The notes under the pieces are model-generated. The model made no database searches, was not told where the DNA came from, and saw nothing but the letters and a program-made list of their open reading frames with translations. A program made the translations under genes and the position numbers. Below are positions 11,598 through 24,639 of a stretch of 46,038 nucleotides of DNA, in pieces. The first letter of the stretch is position 1, and each line of letters begins with the position of its first letter. This DNA is from Bacillota bacterium (lineage in GTDB: Bacteria > Bacillota > Sulfobacillia > Sulfobacillales > JAIMBI01): positions 1 to 46,038 of the forward strand of contig JAJZWV010000027.1 in NCBI GenBank assembly GCA_021846505.1. Reading direction: 5' to 3'.

Positions 11598-13715
11598 ATG
11601 GAGCGCCTGCGCATTCAGCCGCTGCGCCTAGACGGTGCCGATGAAGAGGCCAAGCGGGAAGAAATTCGCCACGTTTTTCATGCCACGTTCGCCCTCGACG
11701 AGCGGATTTTTGACCACCTGGCCGACGAGCGGTCCTGGTATGAAAAGCCTATTGCCCTGCGCCACCCCTTGATTTTCTACTTCGGCCACACGGCCACGTT
11801 CTACATCAACAAGTTTGTGGTGGCGGGCATTCTCCCCGGCCATCTGGAGGCGCGGCTGGAGTCGATGTTTGCGGTGGGCGTCGATGAAATGTCGTGGGAT
11901 GACCTGGACGACAGCCACTACGACTGGCCAGCGGTGGCGGATGTGCGCGCGTATCGCGCCCGTGTGCGTGAAGTCGTCGATCGGGTGATAAGCGATCTGC
12001 CGCTCACGCTTCCCATCCGCTGGGACTCGCCCTGGTGGGCTGTGCTCATGGCCATCGAGCACGAAAACATCCACCTCGAAACCAGCTCGGTGCTCATCCG
12101 CCAGCTGCCGCTGGCCCGTGTCCGCCCCGTCCCCGATTTTGCGCCAGGGCCAGTGGACCGGCGCCCGGCGCCCCCTAATCCTTTGGTGTCCATCCCGGGC
12201 GGGCCGGTGCAGCTCGGCAAAAGTCGCGACGATCCCCGCTACGGGTGGGACAACGAGTACGGCGTCCACCGGGAAGCGCTGGCGGACTTTTCCGCCAGCC
12301 GGCATTTGGTCAGCAACGGGGAGTTCCGGGGCTTTGTGGACGCGGGCGGCTATAGCGAGCCCGCGTGGTGGTCGGAAGAGGGCTGGCGCTGGCGCAGCTT
12401 CGCCGAGGCCAAGCACCCCACGTTTTGGGTCCCCGGCCGCGGCGGCTGGAACCTCCGGCTGCTGGGCGAGGAGCAGCCGCTGCCCGAAAGCTGGCCGGTG
12501 GAAGTCAACGAGCACGAGGCGGAGGCGTTCTGCGCGTGGAAGTCGGCGGAGGTGGGCCAGCCGCTGCGGCTCCCCACGGAAGACGAGTGGCGCCGCCTGC
12601 TGGACCTCTCGGGGCTCCCCGACAGCGACCAATGGGAGGAGGCCCCCGCTCAGCTGGGCTTGGCGCACGGCGCGTCGCCCTGCCCGGTGGACCAGTTTCG
12701 CCACGGCCCCGTCTATGACGCGGTGGGCAACGTGTGGCAGTGGACCGCCACCCCCATTTACCCCTTCGACGGATTTCAGGTGCACCCGTACTACGACGAC
12801 TTTACCGTGCCCACGTTTGACCAGCAGCACAACCTCATCAAAGGCGGATCGTTTATCAGCTTGGGCAACGAAACCCAGCGCGAGGCGCGCTATGCGTTTC
12901 GCCGGCACTTTTTCCAGCACGCCGGCTTTCGCTACGTTGCCTCCGACAACCTGGTCTCGGTCGTGCCCGCCTATGAGAGCGACCCGGGGGTGGCGCAAGC
13001 GTGCGCCCTGGACTACGGGCCGGACTATTTCGAGATCCCCAACTATCGCGAGGCGATGGCGCGCCTGGCGCTGGCGGCGCTCGGCAGCCGCCCCGCCCGG
13101 CGGGCGCTGGACGTGGGGTGCGGCGCCGGCCGCAGCAGTTTCGCCCTGGCGCGCCACATCTCCGACGTCACCGGCCTCGATCTGTCGGCGCGCGTGATTC
13201 GGGTGGGAACCGGGCTCAAAGAGCGGGGCCGCTACCCGTACGCGGTCATCGAGGAAGGCGAGCTCGAAAGCCACCGGTGGGCGGATCTGGCCGAGGTGGG
13301 CCTGGCGGCCGTCGGAGACCGCGTGCAGTTTGTGCAGGGGGACCCGACTAATCTAAAGCCGCAGTACCGGGACTACGATCTTGTTCTCGCGGCCAGCGTG
13401 CTGGACCGCCTGCGGGACCCGGGTGGGTTTCTCGCCGCCATGGCCGAGCGCGTGCGGCCCGGGGGGCTTTTAGTCATCAGCAGCGCCTACGCGTGGCAAG
13501 AGGACGTGACGCCGCGGGCGCACTGGATCGGGGGATTTAAGAAGGACGGCGAAACCTTTACGACACTGGATGGGCTGCATGAGGCGCTGGACCAGCACTT
13601 TCAGCTGCTGCCGGGCTTCCCCTGCGAAGTGCCGCTCGTGGCTCGGCAGACCGCCCGCACGTTTTTGCACGCCATCGCCCAGGCGACGGTGTGGGAGCGG
13701 CGCGCGAAGGGCTAG
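11598..13715 (+). CDS. ovoA: OvoA: 5-histidylcysteine sulfoxide synthase fused to 4-mercaptohistidine N1-methyltransferase
   Basis: A 705-residue protein with the three-part layout of ovothiol synthase. The N-terminal DinB-like/iron-binding region has HPLIFYFGHTATFY (about 56-69) and the HxxxHxE motif IEHENIHLE (H155, H159, E161). The central FGE-sulfatase-like domain has GGPVQLG, YGWDNEYG, LPTEDEWRRL, VGNVWQW and KGGSF. The C-terminal SAM methyltransferase has ALDVGCGAGRSS at about 502-513. OvoA joins cysteine to histidine with O2 using nonheme iron, and its methyltransferase domain makes the N-methyl group of ovothiol, a redox thiol. EgtB of ergothioneine synthesis is related but lacks this fused domain. 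ATG at 11598 follows GAGGGGGGC. A PLP sulfoxide lyase is needed but none is seen nearby. Its stop overlaps the next gene's stop at CTAG. Confidence 0.9.
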   Translation: MERLRIQPLRLDGADEEAKREEIRHVFHATFALDERIFDHLADERSWYEKPIALRHPLIFYFGHTATFYINKFVVAGILPGHLEARLESMFAVGVDEMSWDDLDDSHYDWPAVADVRAYRARVREVVDRVISDLPLTLPIRWDSPWWAVLMAIEHENIHLETSSVLIRQLPLARVRPVPDFAPGPVDRRPAPPNPLVSIPGGPVQLGKSRDDPRYGWDNEYGVHREALADFSASRHLVSNGEFRGFVDAGGYSEPAWWSEEGWRWRSFAEAKHPTFWVPGRGGWNLRLLGEEQPLPESWPVEVNEHEAEAFCAWKSAEVGQPLRLPTEDEWRRLLDLSGLPDSDQWEEAPAQLGLAHGASPCPVDQFRHGPVYDAVGNVWQWTATPIYPFDGFQVHPYYDDFTVPTFDQQHNLIKGGSFISLGNETQREARYAFRRHFFQHAGFRYVASDNLVSVVPAYESDPGVAQACALDYGPDYFEIPNYREAMARLALAALGSRPARRALDVGCGAGRSSFALARHISDVTGLDLSARVIRVGTGLKERGRYPYAVIEEGELESHRWADLAEVGLAAVGDRVQFVQGDPTNLKPQYRDYDLVLAASVLDRLRDPGGFLAAMAERVRPGGLLVISSAYAWQEDVTPRAHWIGGFKKDGETFTTLDGLHEALDQHFQLLPGFPCEVPLVARQTARTFLHAIAQATVWERRAKG

Positions 13716-14668
13716 GCATCGCTGGGGGGCTCACTCGCACGCGCCTCCCGGTCCAGCCGCATGGCGGCCTGGCGAAAGGTGAGGCGCAGGTGGTCCCAGT
13801 CCAGCGGCACCAGCAGCGCGACCCGCGCGGGCTGCACCTTTTCCGCTTGAACCAGGGCCCGGATGAACCAGTCGCGGTCAAAGCCGGGGTCCTTTTCCCC
13901 GGCCCAGGCCATGAGCTGGGACAGCTCGAACCGCCCCAGCAGCATGTACACATCCACGAAGTCGCGGGTGGCCGCGCGGCTAAACAGGGCCAGCGTCTTG
14001 TCGGCGGCCAGATCCGGAAGCGACCGCGTGGGCATGCCGTCCACCGCCACGCCGGAGGGGGCCAGCTGGTAGGGGCTGTCCTCGGCCAGCTCCACCTTGA
14101 CGGGGCGCTCACCGACCCACAGGCGGGTGAACGTGGGATAGTGCTGCTCGGTGCGGACCGAAAGCCCCGCCGCTCGCCACGCGGCGTCCACGGCGGGCAC
14201 CGCCTCGGCCAGCGTCCGCGCGCCCGTAAACAGGTCGAAGTCGTCGGAGCGTCGGTGCCCCAGATACCCCGCCGCTAAGCCGGTTCCCCCGGCCAGCTGG
14301 AACCCATAGGCCGGCAGCACCGACGCCGCCACCGCTAAAATGTGGTGCTGCTCGGCGTCCAGCACCTCCCCCCGGTGCTCGATGGCGCGCTCCTCCTCTC
14401 GATAGTGGTCCCAAAAGGCTCGCAGGCGCGGGTCGAGGGCCACCTGACCCCACAGCGCGTCGACGGCGCCCCACCGAATGGTGCGCCAATCCGCGGCCGT
14501 GCCTTCTTCCAAAATCGTGGTGACGACCGCAACCACCCACTCGGGATTGTCCGCATCCCGAGCACTGGGCGCCCGCCCCGACCAAAACAGCCGCCTGAGA
14601 GGCCACTCCGCCGGACTTTGGGTGAGCCACCGCGTCCATCCGCCGGATTCCCCTAAGGCTTGCGCCAT
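13712..14668 (-). CDS. AbiEii/AbiGii-like nucleotidyltransferase (DUF1814), with N-terminal extension
   Basis: A 318-residue protein. The nucleotidyltransferase signature is clear: LAGGTGLAAGYLGHRRSDDFDLF (GG at about 127-128, the HRRSDDFDL metal-binding segment at about 138-146). A later conserved lysine region, DLAADKTLALFSR, is followed by RDFVDVYMLL, both typical of the AbiEii toxin family. The first 110 residues are an extra helical region not needed for the core. AbiE systems pair this toxin with an AbiEi transcription-factor antitoxin just upstream; none is seen here, so it may be an orphan or use another control. ATG at 14668 follows GGGGAGGAG. A perfect TATAAT lies about 60 bases upstream. 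It converges on ovoA with a shared CTAG stop overlap. Confidence 0.82.
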   Translation of the reverse strand: MAQALGESGGWTRWLTQSPAEWPLRRLFWSGRAPSARDADNPEWVVAVVTTILEEGTAADWRTIRWGAVDALWGQVALDPRLRAFWDHYREEERAIEHRGEVLDAEQHHILAVAASVLPAYGFQLAGGTGLAAGYLGHRRSDDFDLFTGARTLAEAVPAVDAAWRAAGLSVRTEQHYPTFTRLWVGERPVKVELAEDSPYQLAPSGVAVDGMPTRSLPDLAADKTLALFSRAATRDFVDVYMLLGRFELSQLMAWAGEKDPGFDRDWFIRALVQAEKVQPARVALLVPLDWDHLRLTFRQAAMRLDREARASEPPSDA

Positions 14669-18722: not shown

Positions 18723-19898
18723 TCAAGCGCGGCGCGCCTTGACGAAGGCCAGGCAGGCATCTTTCGCATTCTGCAAATGAATGAAGCTCTCGTGATTCCC
18801 TCCAACATCGGGATGGGTTATCGTAGAAAGCTTCCTAAACCTCGCTGTAATTTCCTCTTCCGTAACATTTACCGTGTCGAAGAACAAAGTGCGAAAGCAC
18901 TCAGGGAGGCCATTACCCGCCCGCCCTGCGCCGCCGGCCGGCTGCTGGCCACTCTGGCCTTTTTGCTGCTTGGTGTCGTCCTCTTGAGGGCCGCGGCTTT
19001 GTTGATTGCTGCGAGACTGTTCTTCATATGAGCGTTCTGATTGCTCATCCTGCAGGCGGCCCAGCAACTCCTCTCGCTCCCACACGTCGACTTGGTGCCG
19101 CCGAGCGTAGTCTCGGGCACCAGGAGTCAAATGGCTATTTGTGACAACCAACGCGGCGTCCGCTCTGTAGTAAACCTTGGCGCGCAGTACCTGTTCGACG
19201 GCGCTAGTGCCGACTGGCCCGCTATACCGTTTAAGCTGAGCTGCGACGCGACGCCTGTCAGGCGTCGTGAGCACTAAGTCAGCTCCGCGGTCCCGCGTGC
19301 CCGGAGTTTTCCAGACCCGCCAGCCCAGGGCCTGAAAGTGTTGCCGCATTCGCGTCTCAAAAGCCCACCCGTTCATGGCGTCGATGTCACCCATGGCGCT
19401 GTCTTCGCTGGCGTAAGACGTATGGCGGGACGTGCGTGGGCCCCAGGTCCGGTCGTCGTCGTGGGGAGTGCTGTAGGTGGTGTGCTGAGTCGTGCGGACA
19501 TGGAGAAGCAAGCGCTCTTTGAGCGCATCGAGAGCGTCCATGTAGCGCTTCGCTTCTTTCGGCCAGGCGAACCCCTGTGAATGCGCAGCAAATATCCCCG
19601 CGACTATCGCCACACTGACAAGCCATGCTAGTGATAGGCCGGAAACCTCACCCCAGATCGCGATCCCAATTAAGCAAGAGGCAAAGGCCGTGGCGGTTAT
19701 CCAAAGACTCTCATGGCCGCGCCAAGGCTTTCGCAACACGCTTAGGTCAAGAGCGACGTATCCCTGGCGCTGAAGCCAAACGCCGAGGGCGGCCAGGGCA
19801 GCAAGAACCACCCAGGGAAGCAAAGCCAACACGACAAATAATCCCACGATAAGCGTGAGCCATCCGGGCACCCCGATGGTTGGTTTGCGCGTTCTCAC
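18723..19898 (-). CDS. Membrane-anchored Mrr-type nuclease fused to a C-terminal J-domain
   Basis: A 391-residue protein. Residues about 13-41, 66-82 and 89-106 are hydrophobic membrane segments. A linker follows, then an Mrr_cat-like PD-(D/E)xK domain (about 175-282): NGWAFETRMRQHFQALGW, RGADLVL (D207) and AAQLKRY (Q221-x-K223, the Mrr form of the active site), then ALVVTNSHLTPGARDYA and a VxxWEREEL end. A Gln/Ser-rich linker (283-330) leads to a DnaJ-like J-domain with EEEITARFRKLSTITHPDVGG (HPD at 362-364) and a final helix. Mrr-type enzymes cut modified or foreign DNA; J-domains stimulate Hsp70 (DnaK). GTG at 19898 follows TAAGGAG and lies about 32 bases after a promoter. No methylase or other partner is adjacent. 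Confidence 0.83.
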   Translation of the reverse strand: MRTRKPTIGVPGWLTLIVGLFVVLALLPWVVLAALAALGVWLQRQGYVALDLSVLRKPWRGHESLWITATAFASCLIGIAIWGEVSGLSLAWLVSVAIVAGIFAAHSQGFAWPKEAKRYMDALDALKERLLLHVRTTQHTTYSTPHDDDRTWGPRTSRHTSYASEDSAMGDIDAMNGWAFETRMRQHFQALGWRVWKTPGTRDRGADLVLTTPDRRRVAAQLKRYSGPVGTSAVEQVLRAKVYYRADAALVVTNSHLTPGARDYARRHQVDVWEREELLGRLQDEQSERSYEEQSRSNQQSRGPQEDDTKQQKGQSGQQPAGGAGRAGNGLPECFRTLFFDTVNVTEEEITARFRKLSTITHPDVGGNHESFIHLQNAKDACLAFVKARRA

Positions 19899-19930
19899 CC
19901 ACTCGGACTCCTTAGGGACATGTTTTTGCC

Positions 19931-19960
19931 AGCCTAAACAGTGGTCCGCGGAAGTGTCAA
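19931..19960 (-). promoter_or_regulatory. Promoter of the Mrr-J gene
   Basis: On the minus strand a perfect TTGACA (19955-19960) is followed after 18 bases by TAGGCT (19931-19936), a TAnnnT-type -10. The predicted start of transcription gives a leader of about 25 bases before the GTG at 19898, which supports that start codon. Confidence 0.6.
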
Positions 19961-20458
19961 GTATGTGGTGATTGCCCACAAGTGCCGCGTCTCCTCTGAG
20001 GGGATGGCGAGGTGCACCTCCGAGTGATGCGCCTGCTCCGTCAGCCGCCGCAGGACAATACTGGCACATGAAGGCGAAGGAACACGGCGAGCGATGACGC
20101 GGGCGTCACTGTCGTGAGGCGAATCGTCGGTGCCTTGCCGGCCGTGGGGAAGATTGTGCTGTGCGGGTCGCGAGCGAGGGGAGACGCGACCCGCGACCCG
20201 TGAATTCCGTATGTCGAGAGAGAAGGGGCCCGCATCGAAGTCGTGCAGGTTTTGCACTCCGCCCTTCGGCACAGCGGCGGTGAGGCTCCAGGCGGACGCC
20301 GCTCGTGCCGAGGTCCGCCACACGGGCGCCAGGAGTGGCCCCGGGCCAGCGGGGGATGCGGGGGTGTGGGCGGCGGACGCGGCCGCCATGCGGAAGTGGG
20401 TTATGCCACAGCCGGAGCGCGGCACGCTGCGGCCGTGTGATGAGGCGTAGCCGAGGGG
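19961..20458. other. 500-base gap without an intact gene
   Basis: No ribosome site plus coding-like frame is seen. The right part (from about 20380) may already belong to the IS110 ghost described next, whose upstream limit is unclear. Confidence 0.45.
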
Positions 20459-20800
20459 GTGTGGGCGGCGGCAGGTGGCGCCGCTCGGGTCGCGCGTCAG
20501 CCGGCGCGACCGACGGACCGCATCAAGACCGGCCGGCGCGAGGCGCGCCAGCTGGCGGACGCGCTGCGGCCGCCCCGGGGCCCGCGCGTGGGGCCGGCCC
20601 ATCGGGCGTGGCTCCGCCCCGTCGCGCCGACGCCGCCGCCCGGGGACGCGGTGTGGGGGGAACTGCTGAGCCAGCGCGGCGAAGCGGTCCGTCGGGCTGG
20701 CCGCTTGACCCGGCAGATCGCGGCCGCAGGCCCCACGCACCCGCTGGCGCCACTGATGCTGGTGTGTCAGCGGCTCCGCAGCGTGGGCTGCTCACGGCCG
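20459..20800 (+). pseudogene. IS110-family transposase remnant
   Basis: The frame contains DRIKTGRREARQLADALR, matching the IS110/IS1111 motif D-R-V-K-T-D-R-R-D-A-x-K-L-A, in which the acidic residue of RRDA has become E and the first D has become G. After an apparent internal deletion comes HRAWLR, then GRLTRQIAAAGPTHPLAPLM and QRLRSVG, the usual lead-in to the helix-hairpin-helix region. The N-terminal catalytic part and the C-terminal serine region are missing. IS110 enzymes are RNA-guided (bridge RNA) DEDD recombinases; this copy is dead. The frame happens to stay open into the next gene. Confidence 0.6.
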
Positions 20801-21061
20801 CCACGACGCGCCCTGCCCGGCGTCCAGCTCCAGGGTCGCCAGCCCATCCCCAAGCAACTCGTCATAGGGAAGGATCCGCGGCGGGAACACTGCTTCCGCG
20901 GTGCGGCGGTCGCGGCGGCCGGCGCCCCAGCACCCAGCGCGCGTGAGCGATTCCCGCCGGATCCTGGTCAGATAGGGTGGGATTCTGCACCACCGATGCG
21001 GGGTCTCGCTCCGGCTGCCGCCAGCGCCGCATGTTATGCTCGCGGCGCGGGAGGTGGTTTA

Positions 21062-22400: not shown

Positions 22401-23984
22401 ATGGAAAAGCGCCGGGTGGCCGAGTTGCTGGTGGTGTTTGGCTTTTTTCTGGCCGTGGGCTGGTCGTGGCTCGGCATCATGCCGCTGTGGCAAGGGGCCG
22501 ATGAGCCCGCCCACTTTGCCTACACGCAGTATATGGCGACCCACGTACTGCCCCCGGTGCAGCGGGTGGTGGCGCCCGGCGCGCACCCCTGGACGTTCAG
22601 CCCCTCGCCGGCGGAGGCGGTCGCCATCCAGGTCACGCACCACAGCCGTCTGCTGGCCGGACCCCAGGGCCAGCTGTCCACGACGCCCCGCGAGGCGGCC
22701 CAGGCTCGGCGTGCCGTTCGCCGGGCAAGCGCCGCGCTGGGCGGGGACCAGGCGGGGAGCCAAAACTATGTCGCCATCTATCCCCCGCTGTACTATGCCG
22801 CCGCCGGCCGGCTCGCGGCGTGGCTCCACATCCGGGACGTGTTCACCCAGGCGTTTGTGGCGCGCGCCGTCTCGGCGGCGCTCTTGGGGCTGACGGGGGT
22901 GCTGGTCGACGTCGTGGTGGGGCTGGCCATCGCAGGGCGGCGGCTGCGCGCCGCGCTAGCCGCCGCCCTTGGGCTGGCTTTTCCCACGCTCGGCATGCTC
23001 GGCGGCACGGTGACGAATGACCTTACGGCGGACGCCGCTAGCTTGGCGGTGTTTTACCTCGCGGTCCGGGCTCTGGGGTCCCCGCGCCTTCGCCGCACGG
23101 CCGCGCTGGTCTTTGGCGCCGTGGCTGGCCTGGTGCTCTGGACCAAAGAGGAAGCGTATGTGGGGCTCGCGGTGGCCGTGCCGTTCGTGCTGTGGGCCGT
23201 GTGGCGCCGCGAGGGCCCGCGGCGCGCCGGGACGCTCATCGCCGCCGCCGTGGCCGTGGGCGCGGCCGTGGGCGGCCCATGGCTCTGGTTTACCTGGCAT
23301 GCCTATCACGCCTTAGTGCCGCCGCTCACCTATCAGGCGGCCGGGACCGAGCCGCGCACCGCTGTCTGGGTGCTGCATCAGCAGCTGCTGAACCGCACCT
23401 ACCTGCTGTATCTGTTCGTCAGTCAAACCGTATTTGGCATCGTCTGGTGGAGCCCCTGGTCTCACACCCACCTGCTGTTCGACCTCATCGCCCTGCCGCT
23501 GGCGGCACTGCTGGTCGGGGGCGTCATCCAGGCGCGCCGGGCCCCGGGCTTTTGGCTCGCCACCACTTGGATAGCCGTGGGTGTGGCCGTTTTGTTCTGG
23601 CTGCAAGTCCAGTACACGCTGGCGACCGGTGCTAGCTTCCTCCAGGGCCGGTACTTCTTCTTCCTCCTGGGACCGTATTTCTGGCTGGCCGCCCATGCCA
23701 TCCGGCGCATCGCGGCCGCCGCCGTGCCGCTGCTGCTGGCGGGGGCCGCGGTGCTGTCGGCGCTGGTGGCCAACGCCACCCTCTATCGGTTTTACGATGC
23801 CGGCCTCGGAGCTTATTTCACCGGCCGGATTGTGCCGTTCGGACCCCCGGCCATCCTGCTCCTGAGCCGCCTGGCGGCGGTGGCGGTGGCCCTGGGCGTG
23901 CTCGGCCTGCTGGCCGCGCTGACGATTCCTTATGCCCGGCGCCGGATCGCTGGGCTGGCCCCCCGCGGCCCGGGGGCCAGCTAA
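22401..23984 (+). CDS. Polytopic membrane protein, DUF2142/GT-C glycosyltransferase type
   Basis: A 527-residue protein with about twelve hydrophobic segments. ATG at 22401 follows GGAGG at about 22390-22394. After the first helix comes MPLWQGADEPAHFAYTQYMA, the acidic first-loop motif (D-E-x-x-H-F) of DUF2142 proteins, which are related to GT-C glycosyltransferases that use lipid-linked sugars in surface polysaccharide or protein glycosylation. The long outside loop (about 40-135) and the YPPLYYAAAGRLAA helix entry also match. The sugar and acceptor are unknown and no polysaccharide genes are adjacent. The frame is intact. Confidence 0.8.
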   Translation: MEKRRVAELLVVFGFFLAVGWSWLGIMPLWQGADEPAHFAYTQYMATHVLPPVQRVVAPGAHPWTFSPSPAEAVAIQVTHHSRLLAGPQGQLSTTPREAAQARRAVRRASAALGGDQAGSQNYVAIYPPLYYAAAGRLAAWLHIRDVFTQAFVARAVSAALLGLTGVLVDVVVGLAIAGRRLRAALAAALGLAFPTLGMLGGTVTNDLTADAASLAVFYLAVRALGSPRLRRTAALVFGAVAGLVLWTKEEAYVGLAVAVPFVLWAVWRREGPRRAGTLIAAAVAVGAAVGGPWLWFTWHAYHALVPPLTYQAAGTEPRTAVWVLHQQLLNRTYLLYLFVSQTVFGIVWWSPWSHTHLLFDLIALPLAALLVGGVIQARRAPGFWLATTWIAVGVAVLFWLQVQYTLATGASFLQGRYFFFLLGPYFWLAAHAIRRIAAAAVPLLLAGAAVLSALVANATLYRFYDAGLGAYFTGRIVPFGPPAILLLSRLAAVAVALGVLGLLAALTIPYARRRIAGLAPRGPGAS

Positions 23985-24003
23985 CCCTGTGGGGCCCAGG
24001 CGA

Positions 24004-24366
24004 TCACTCCGTGAGAGGATTGCGAAGCCGCACCCCACCGATGGTGGCCCCCGTCGGGCCATCTTCGGTGATAATCCCGTGGATGGGTGAGGCTGCTCCT
24101 CCACGCCACCGAGTGCCATGGCCAAGGTGTTCGCGGAGGGCAGAATGACCGTCCAGGATCGCCAGTACTCGGCCACTAGGGAGCGGCAGACGCCGGCGTC
24201 GATGCCGTGGCGGAGGGCCACCGCGCTAAACTCTGACAACACCGGGAGTGCCAGGCACACATCGGGCCGCAGACGATCGAATAGCTGCCGCGCCACGCGT
24301 GCCCCCTCCGCATCGGTTCGGATGCCGGCGGCATACACCAGCACATTGGCATCAGCGAGTGCCGTC
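24004..24366 (-). pseudogene. PIN-domain (VapC-type) toxin, internally deleted
   Basis: Directly after the RHH antitoxin stop comes a PIN-domain start, LADANVLVYAAGIRTDAEG, with the first metal-binding aspartate, then LALPVLSEFSAVALR with the conserved glutamate. The frame then loses sense after AMALGG. A second PIN piece appears in another frame, GIITEDGPTGATIGG followed by VRLRNPL, the usual C-terminal end, stopping at 24004-24006. The middle with the third acidic residue is gone. No ATG, GTG or TTG stands next to the PIN start, so the start codon may be damaged too. VapC toxins cleave tRNA or rRNA; this one should be inactive. Confidence 0.68.
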
Positions 24367-24639
24367 CTACTTATCCAGCCGCTCGGCGTACACGTCCGCC
24401 CGTTGGAATCGGTGGGTCGCCTCGCCGGCGATGGGCCAGGCCTCCAACAGTTTCTCGAGGCGCCGCCACGCCACGTCGCGCTTGCCGTCGTCGTCCAGCC
24501 GCTGGCGAATCCCCTCACGAATTAGTGCGGCTTCCGACTGGCCGCGGGCGCGCGCCATCTCTTTCAGCCGCCGGTCCTCATCGGCCGGCAAATAGACCTG
24601 CTGGCGGATCCCGATCACTTGCCTCTCCGTCTCATACAT
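24367..24639 (-). CDS. Ribbon-helix-helix (CopG-type) antitoxin
   Basis: A 90-residue protein that looks intact. The N-terminal RHH fold reads RQQVYLPADEDRRLKEMARARGQSEAALIREGIRQRL: one beta strand and two helices. The C-terminal half is the expected toxin-binding region (WPIAGEATHRFQRADVYAERLDK). ATG at 24639. It precedes the broken PIN toxin on the same strand, the usual antitoxin-toxin order. A palindrome just upstream is a likely autoregulatory operator. With the toxin lost it may persist as a free antitoxin. Confidence 0.75.
   Translation of the reverse strand: MYETERQVIGIRQQVYLPADEDRRLKEMARARGQSEAALIREGIRQRLDDDGKRDVAWRRLEKLLEAWPIAGEATHRFQRADVYAERLDK

Follow-up and report, generated by a model that had tools for sequence, protein, structure and literature searches.

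A candidate DnaK-linked defence nuclease: a membrane-anchored Mrr protein with a J-domain tail of phage and mobile-element type

The fusion gene and its surroundings

The window, meaning the whole stretch of 46,038 nucleotides that was analysed, carries on its minus strand a gene (18723–19898) encoding 391 amino acids in a single uninterrupted frame, which runs from a GTG start at 19898 to a stop codon at 18723–18725; an upstream ATG also lies within the open frame and would give 448 residues. The ribosome-binding site pointed out in an earlier note on this DNA can be read directly from the sequence as AAGGAG (19908–19913, minus strand), 9 nt 5′ of the GTG. The same note had described a clean promoter. 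The promoter-like element upstream (19931–19960, minus strand) does contain a perfect −35 hexamer, TTGACA (19955–19960), followed by an 18 bp spacer, but ‘clean’ was overstated, because the weak −10 hexamer TAGGCT (19931–19936) matches the consensus in only 3/6 positions and a consensus promoter scan called no promoter upstream of the gene.

The fusion gene sits between a DoxX gene and a transposase gene remnant on the plus strand (20337–20993). The DoxX gene is conserved in the three congeneric genomes, in which it is followed by a different gene. From the translation of the best aligned copy of the transposase remnant we take it to be IS110-like; several diverged copies occur in the same genome and in congeners. 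The GC3 of the fusion gene is 0.60–0.76 over its main parts versus mostly 0.81–0.89 in the flanking genes, a composition that suggests a foreign origin. The low values are common to the Mrr part and the J part, and since both share this foreign signature, a recent joining of the two within this genome appears unlikely.

The neighbouring genes in the window, encoding DoxX, MFS transporters, an AbiEii-like protein and PNPOx, form no defence island. The AbiEii-like nucleotidyltransferase (13715–14668, minus strand; PF08843, 2e-12), some 4 kb away from the fusion gene, may be a type IV toxin or a solitary relative thereof. At about 23960–24639, also on the minus strand, a ribbon-helix-helix-like antitoxin ORF adjoins a PIN-like ORF, as read from their translations, and the pair is possibly a VapBC module.

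Membrane segments, nuclease domain and J-domain tail

An AlphaFold model of the protein, built with 17 sequences and with pLDDT above 90 across most of the Mrr and J parts, comprises two long helices (residues 12–44 and 63–107) that are hydrophobic across three stretches, and places the nuclease at 163–275 and the J-domain at 333–390, with some linker parts below 50. The first membrane helix (residues 12–44; 19767–19865, minus strand) was delimited by the model together with hydrophobicity, while the predicted second and third segments (residues 63–107; 19578–19712, minus strand) share one modelled helix with a likely hairpin at GEVSG. A topology of three membrane segments, the first and last loops being basic, fits this protein as well as both Alicyclobacillus fusions described below and, because these loops are basic in all three, the Mrr nuclease and the J tail would lie in the cytoplasm according to the positive-inside rule. 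A SLATT match was too weak to use.

The Mrr_cat PD-(D/E)xK nuclease domain (residues 172–279; 19062–19385, minus strand), previously proposed from its D207 and Q221-x-K223 residues, was confirmed in the Pfam scan by a match to PF04471 (E 6e-23; 81.6 bits, above the gathering cut-off of 21). Alignments showed that D207 (codon 19278–19280), Q221 (19236–19238) and K223 (19230–19232), all on the minus strand, as well as the upstream E181, are invariant in other Mrr proteins with membrane segments (TM-Mrr) and in the two other fusions. A Foldseek search with the whole model placed MspJI and AspBHI, both modification-dependent enzymes, closest to the nuclease, with overall TM-scores that are low because the model has several domains. 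The profile match and the D…QxK residues together identify the protein as a predicted nuclease of the Mrr_cat type. The suggestion that it restricts modified DNA has no support from a recognition domain: the Pfam scan found neither Mrr_N nor any other target-reading domain, membrane segments being present there instead. Judged by its domain content, the fusion is neither a classical Mrr nor a type IV restriction enzyme like E. coli Mrr.

A low-complexity linker (residues about 280–329; 18912–19061, minus strand), with pLDDT below 50 in part and 6–29% identity between fusions, leads to a C-terminal mini J-domain (residues 330–391; 18726–18911, minus strand), delimited by profiles, AlphaFold, Foldseek and its position in a tree. 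J-domains work through Hsp70 recruitment. The HPD motif (residues 362–364; 18807–18815, minus strand) lies between helices II and III, flanked by model helices at 347–361 and 369–390. The earlier J-domain assignment fell short of the Pfam threshold, with PF00226 scoring 18.1 bits (E 0.003) in the whole protein and 22.1 bits with the J-domain alone, against a gathering cut-off of 27.8, but it was supported by the motif, the family profile and the modelled structure. All of the J-family members (12/12) match Pfam DnaJ, and nothing else was matched consistently; the tail itself matches PHROG_9210 at 4.9e-7, and the J-family profile finds 37 solved chains, mostly J-domain proteins. Likewise, every Foldseek match listed for the tail model either is a J-domain structure or has one within it, among them Tim14 and 5nro, a J-domain bound to DnaK; given the modest E-values (best 0.02, for a short model), the weight of this search lies in the uniformity of the matches and in probabilities near 1. 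Fold, motif and family profile thus indicate that the tail is a J-domain, though one that scores below the Pfam threshold.

The HPD motif, helix II residues R353/R355/K356 and F372 are invariant across the three fusions. Compared with E. coli DnaJ, the tail keeps the HPD motif, the helix II basic pair R355/K356, the preceding aromatic residue F354, and F372. By inspection, it appears to have no counterparts of DnaJ R22 and R36, and stimulation of DnaK by the tail is uncertain for that reason.

Relatives, spread and genomic contexts

Scanning the J-family alignment against an 85,000-species genome collection with a strict peptide pattern returned two loci (J-domains 57–62% identical), both inside TM-Mrr-J proteins, those of Alicyclobacillus ferrooxydans TC-34 (329 aa) and A. 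tolerans BL-1 (374 aa). The architecture is therefore seen in three genomes, and since the pattern was strict, further members may exist. The repetition in two other species rules out an assembly join or a chance frame, and agrees with the earlier description of one intact gene that combines three membrane segments, an Mrr domain and a J-domain. Both Alicyclobacillus proteins are 57–58% identical to the window protein in the Mrr domain and 53–60% in the J-domain, versus 13–22% in the membrane part and 6–29% in the second linker, where alignable. Because the J tail matches the nuclease in conservation while the membrane and linker parts mostly do not, it appears to be under comparable constraint.

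The fusion is absent from three congeneric genomes, and neither the 154 genomes of its class nor 398 drawn from the phylum gave a second full-length match; the 59 genomes of the A. ferrooxydans order and 399 drawn from its class yielded no other fusions either. Phage, plasmid and IMG/VR searches returned Mrr-only or J-only relatives and no fusion. A single-protein query of genome contigs and viral contigs gave no match, its patterns having been derived mostly from variable stretches, while the J-family alignment did find the fusions.

TM-Mrr proteins of about 200 residues and devoid of a J tail were common among the genomes searched. Those of Bacillota, annotated as ‘restriction endonuclease’, likewise have N-terminal membrane segments and an Mrr_cat domain with D and QxK, share roughly 31–48% identity with the nuclease domain of the window protein, and differ from it in having no J-domain. 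The Mrr tree unites the three fusions at low support (83/29); closest to them are TM-Mrr proteins devoid of J, and two tailless relatives (L217 and L218) belong to that region of the tree. The fused J-domains of the three species, on the other hand, form one clade (support 99/99), and the J family of the tail is split from chromosomal DnaJ, including that of the same genome, at 98/94. Members of this family form the C-terminus of phage or prophage proteins about 170 residues long (PHROG_9210); others stand alone, as proteins of some 75 residues, in seemingly integrative (ICE-like) elements. By sequence, then, the fused J-domain is of a phage or mobile-element type set apart from chromosomal DnaJ, although a long branch (1.0) separates the fused clade from the phage J-domains. 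These data fit a single origin of the fusion followed by horizontal spread.

The PHROG_9210 phage protein of about 170 aa is itself widespread (L016, L018, L087, L091, L095, L101 and other loci), with a conserved N-terminal part and a mini J tail, and such proteins may be recruiters of DnaK. In Syntrophomonadaceae-type genomes, seemingly conjugative or pilus gene clusters encode free-standing mini J proteins with a length of about 75 aa (L089, 197–415; L090, 3943–4170).

The fusions differ in their surroundings, with a clear defence island in one of the three genomes. In A. ferrooxydans the gene lies directly after hsdM-hsdS-hsdR, on the same strand and 404 bp past hsdR; a profile identified hsdR, while the assignment of hsdM and hsdS comes only from their position and a reading of the sequence. 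Next to the fusion comes a YgjP-like peptidase gene, and a gene matching PD-T4-10_B and PDC-M63B lies 1.4 kb beyond the fusion. In A. tolerans a lipoprotein gene lies 16 bp ahead of the fusion gene, and a resolvase gene is found at a distance of about 2 kb.

An Mrr match was present at 116 loci, a number that counts some places more than once, and among them J-domain neighbours other than the fusions were seen in three genomes only (G037, G096 and G321). In G037, from the order of the window genome, an XRE/S24 repressor, a J-domain protein and a TM-Mrr protein are encoded in a row (L086 5073–7615, G037:C44), the J gene (Pfam 3e-17) being separated by 17 bp from the TM-Mrr gene, with a recombinase-like gene beside them. 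The J protein has an additional C-terminal part without an assigned domain. This arrangement would be a split, two-gene version of the J/Mrr pairing with a different J type, and is a candidate system. The G096 gene pair was set aside as possibly coincidental, since its membrane J protein resembles one encoded elsewhere in the window genome, as was the combination in G321, where 2 kb separate the J gene from an Mrr gene on the other strand, within a prophage-like region.

A possible DnaK-linked role in defence

The open literature searched contained no described Mrr-J fusion, in accordance with the earlier note, which knew of no well-described system of this architecture; absence there is not proof of novelty. 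Among known defence proteins, the membrane-bound SNIPE cleaves phage DNA as it is being injected and becomes toxic once its membrane anchor is removed, so that the tether both spares the host and directs the nuclease to the injected DNA (PMC13190303). It resembles the fusion as a membrane-anchored nuclease on the cytoplasmic face, but has a DUF4041 sensor, a GIY-YIG nuclease fold and no J-domain (PMC13190303); the Pfam scan of the window protein found neither DUF4041 nor GIY-YIG, and the protein is not SNIPE. For the antiphage protein bNACHT25, sensing of phage protein synthesis and the DNA degradation that it triggers depend on host DnaJ and on contact between DnaJ and DnaK (PMC12169576). This dependence on DnaJ/DnaK recalls the fusion; however, bNACHT25 is a NACHT ATPase with DnaJ in trans, and the same scan gave no NACHT match, so that the window protein is not a bNACHT. 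Phage J-proteins provide a further parallel: PHROG_9210 tails and the fused tail share one J subfamily, and Rki of phage RB43 acts on DnaK early in infection (PMC3486835), but these proteins have no nuclease and Rki serves the phage. The best PADLOC matches of the fusion, Zorya ZorD and the candidate PDC-S02, arose through the Mrr domain, and neither matches the J tail or the membrane part. Zorya combines ZorAB with an SNF2 helicase carrying Mrr, whereas here only the C-terminal Mrr part of ZorD was matched, and the window protein is not a Zorya member. Toxin-antitoxin-chaperone modules (SecB-like) also use a chaperone as sensor or threshold in conflict, with a different chaperone, toxin and layout (PMC7159879, PMC9519451).

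The TM-Mrr-J protein is probably an undescribed DnaK-linked defence nuclease, as suggested by the recurrence of the same three-part protein in A. tolerans and, right behind a complete restriction-modification operon, in A. ferrooxydans. We infer its membrane topology, DnaK binding, nuclease activity and defence role, and we give a probability of about 0.5 to the reading that it is an inner-membrane nuclease directed against phages or mobile DNA, whose activity or access to its target is coupled to DnaK. Anchored in the inner membrane, the protein would expose its Mrr domain and J tail to the cytoplasm, and the tail would recruit DnaK to the nuclease and stimulate the DnaK ATPase. Most likely, coupling to DnaK would serve to restrain the nuclease, or to ensure its correct assembly, as long as the cell is healthy, and an infection that alters DnaK availability, for instance through phage proteins flooding DnaK or through a competing phage J-protein, would switch it to DNA cleavage. 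The direction of control, whether DnaK restrains the nuclease, activates it or prepares its target, is speculative. A defence role had already been proposed for this gene, and the hsdM-hsdS-hsdR context in A. ferrooxydans and the analogies to SNIPE (PMC13190303) and bNACHT25 (PMC12169576) point in the same direction. That interpretation stands as regards the architecture and both domains, while it overlooked the phage or mobile-element type of the J-domain and how common J-less TM-Mrr proteins are.

Other explanations of the tail are conceivable. It might recruit DnaK in order to strip or remodel proteins on foreign DNA at the membrane and so enable the Mrr cut. DnaJ/DnaK removes lambda P during phage lambda replication. 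The requirement of that replication for DnaJ/DnaK (PMC12169576), a membrane position suited to DNA entry sites and the joint cytoplasmic placement of J and Mrr by the positive-inside pattern are in line with such a role, which we nevertheless consider unlikely, as no substrate-binding region accompanies the J-domain, just a short low-complexity linker. We are slightly more sceptical of a tail acting only as a folding or assembly aid in cis, with no sensing through DnaK: this would be the simplest account of a J-domain in cis and accommodates the tailless TM-Mrr relatives nearby in the tree, but those close relatives work, if at all, without a tail, and the tail is conserved as much as the nuclease.

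The affinity of the fused J-domains with PHROG_9210 tails and ICE-like stand-alone proteins rather than with chromosomal DnaJ (98/94) could suggest an integrated decoy, in which the tail mimics a J-domain of a phage or mobile element, so that the enemy’s own J-protein triggers the nuclease. The tail would then bring the nuclease to the phage partner of the J-domain, or sense its loss of DnaK. The long branch (1.0) to the phage J-domains, and the fact that no matching phage is known for the host of the window, make this decidedly doubtful. Finally, the Pfam score under the gathering cut-off would be expected of a degenerate or chance J-like tail without DnaK function, an explanation that the invariant HPD, R353/R355/K356 and F372 and the match of both fold and family profile to J-domains render highly improbable.

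Returning to the DnaK-linked defence nuclease, a more specific version, which we advance only tentatively, is a single-protein defence in which a membrane nuclease has captured a mobile-element J-domain and either the demand of an infection on DnaK or a phage J-protein directly switches on cutting. Since both domains reside in one polypeptide of 329–391 aa, the link between J-domain and nuclease would be addressable by two point changes, in HPD and in D207. The precedent of bNACHT25 indicates that bacteria can sense phages via DnaJ/DnaK (PMC12169576), and the fusion would join three threads in one protein, namely membrane nucleases at the sites of DNA entry, the guarding of chaperones and phage J-proteins that act on DnaK.
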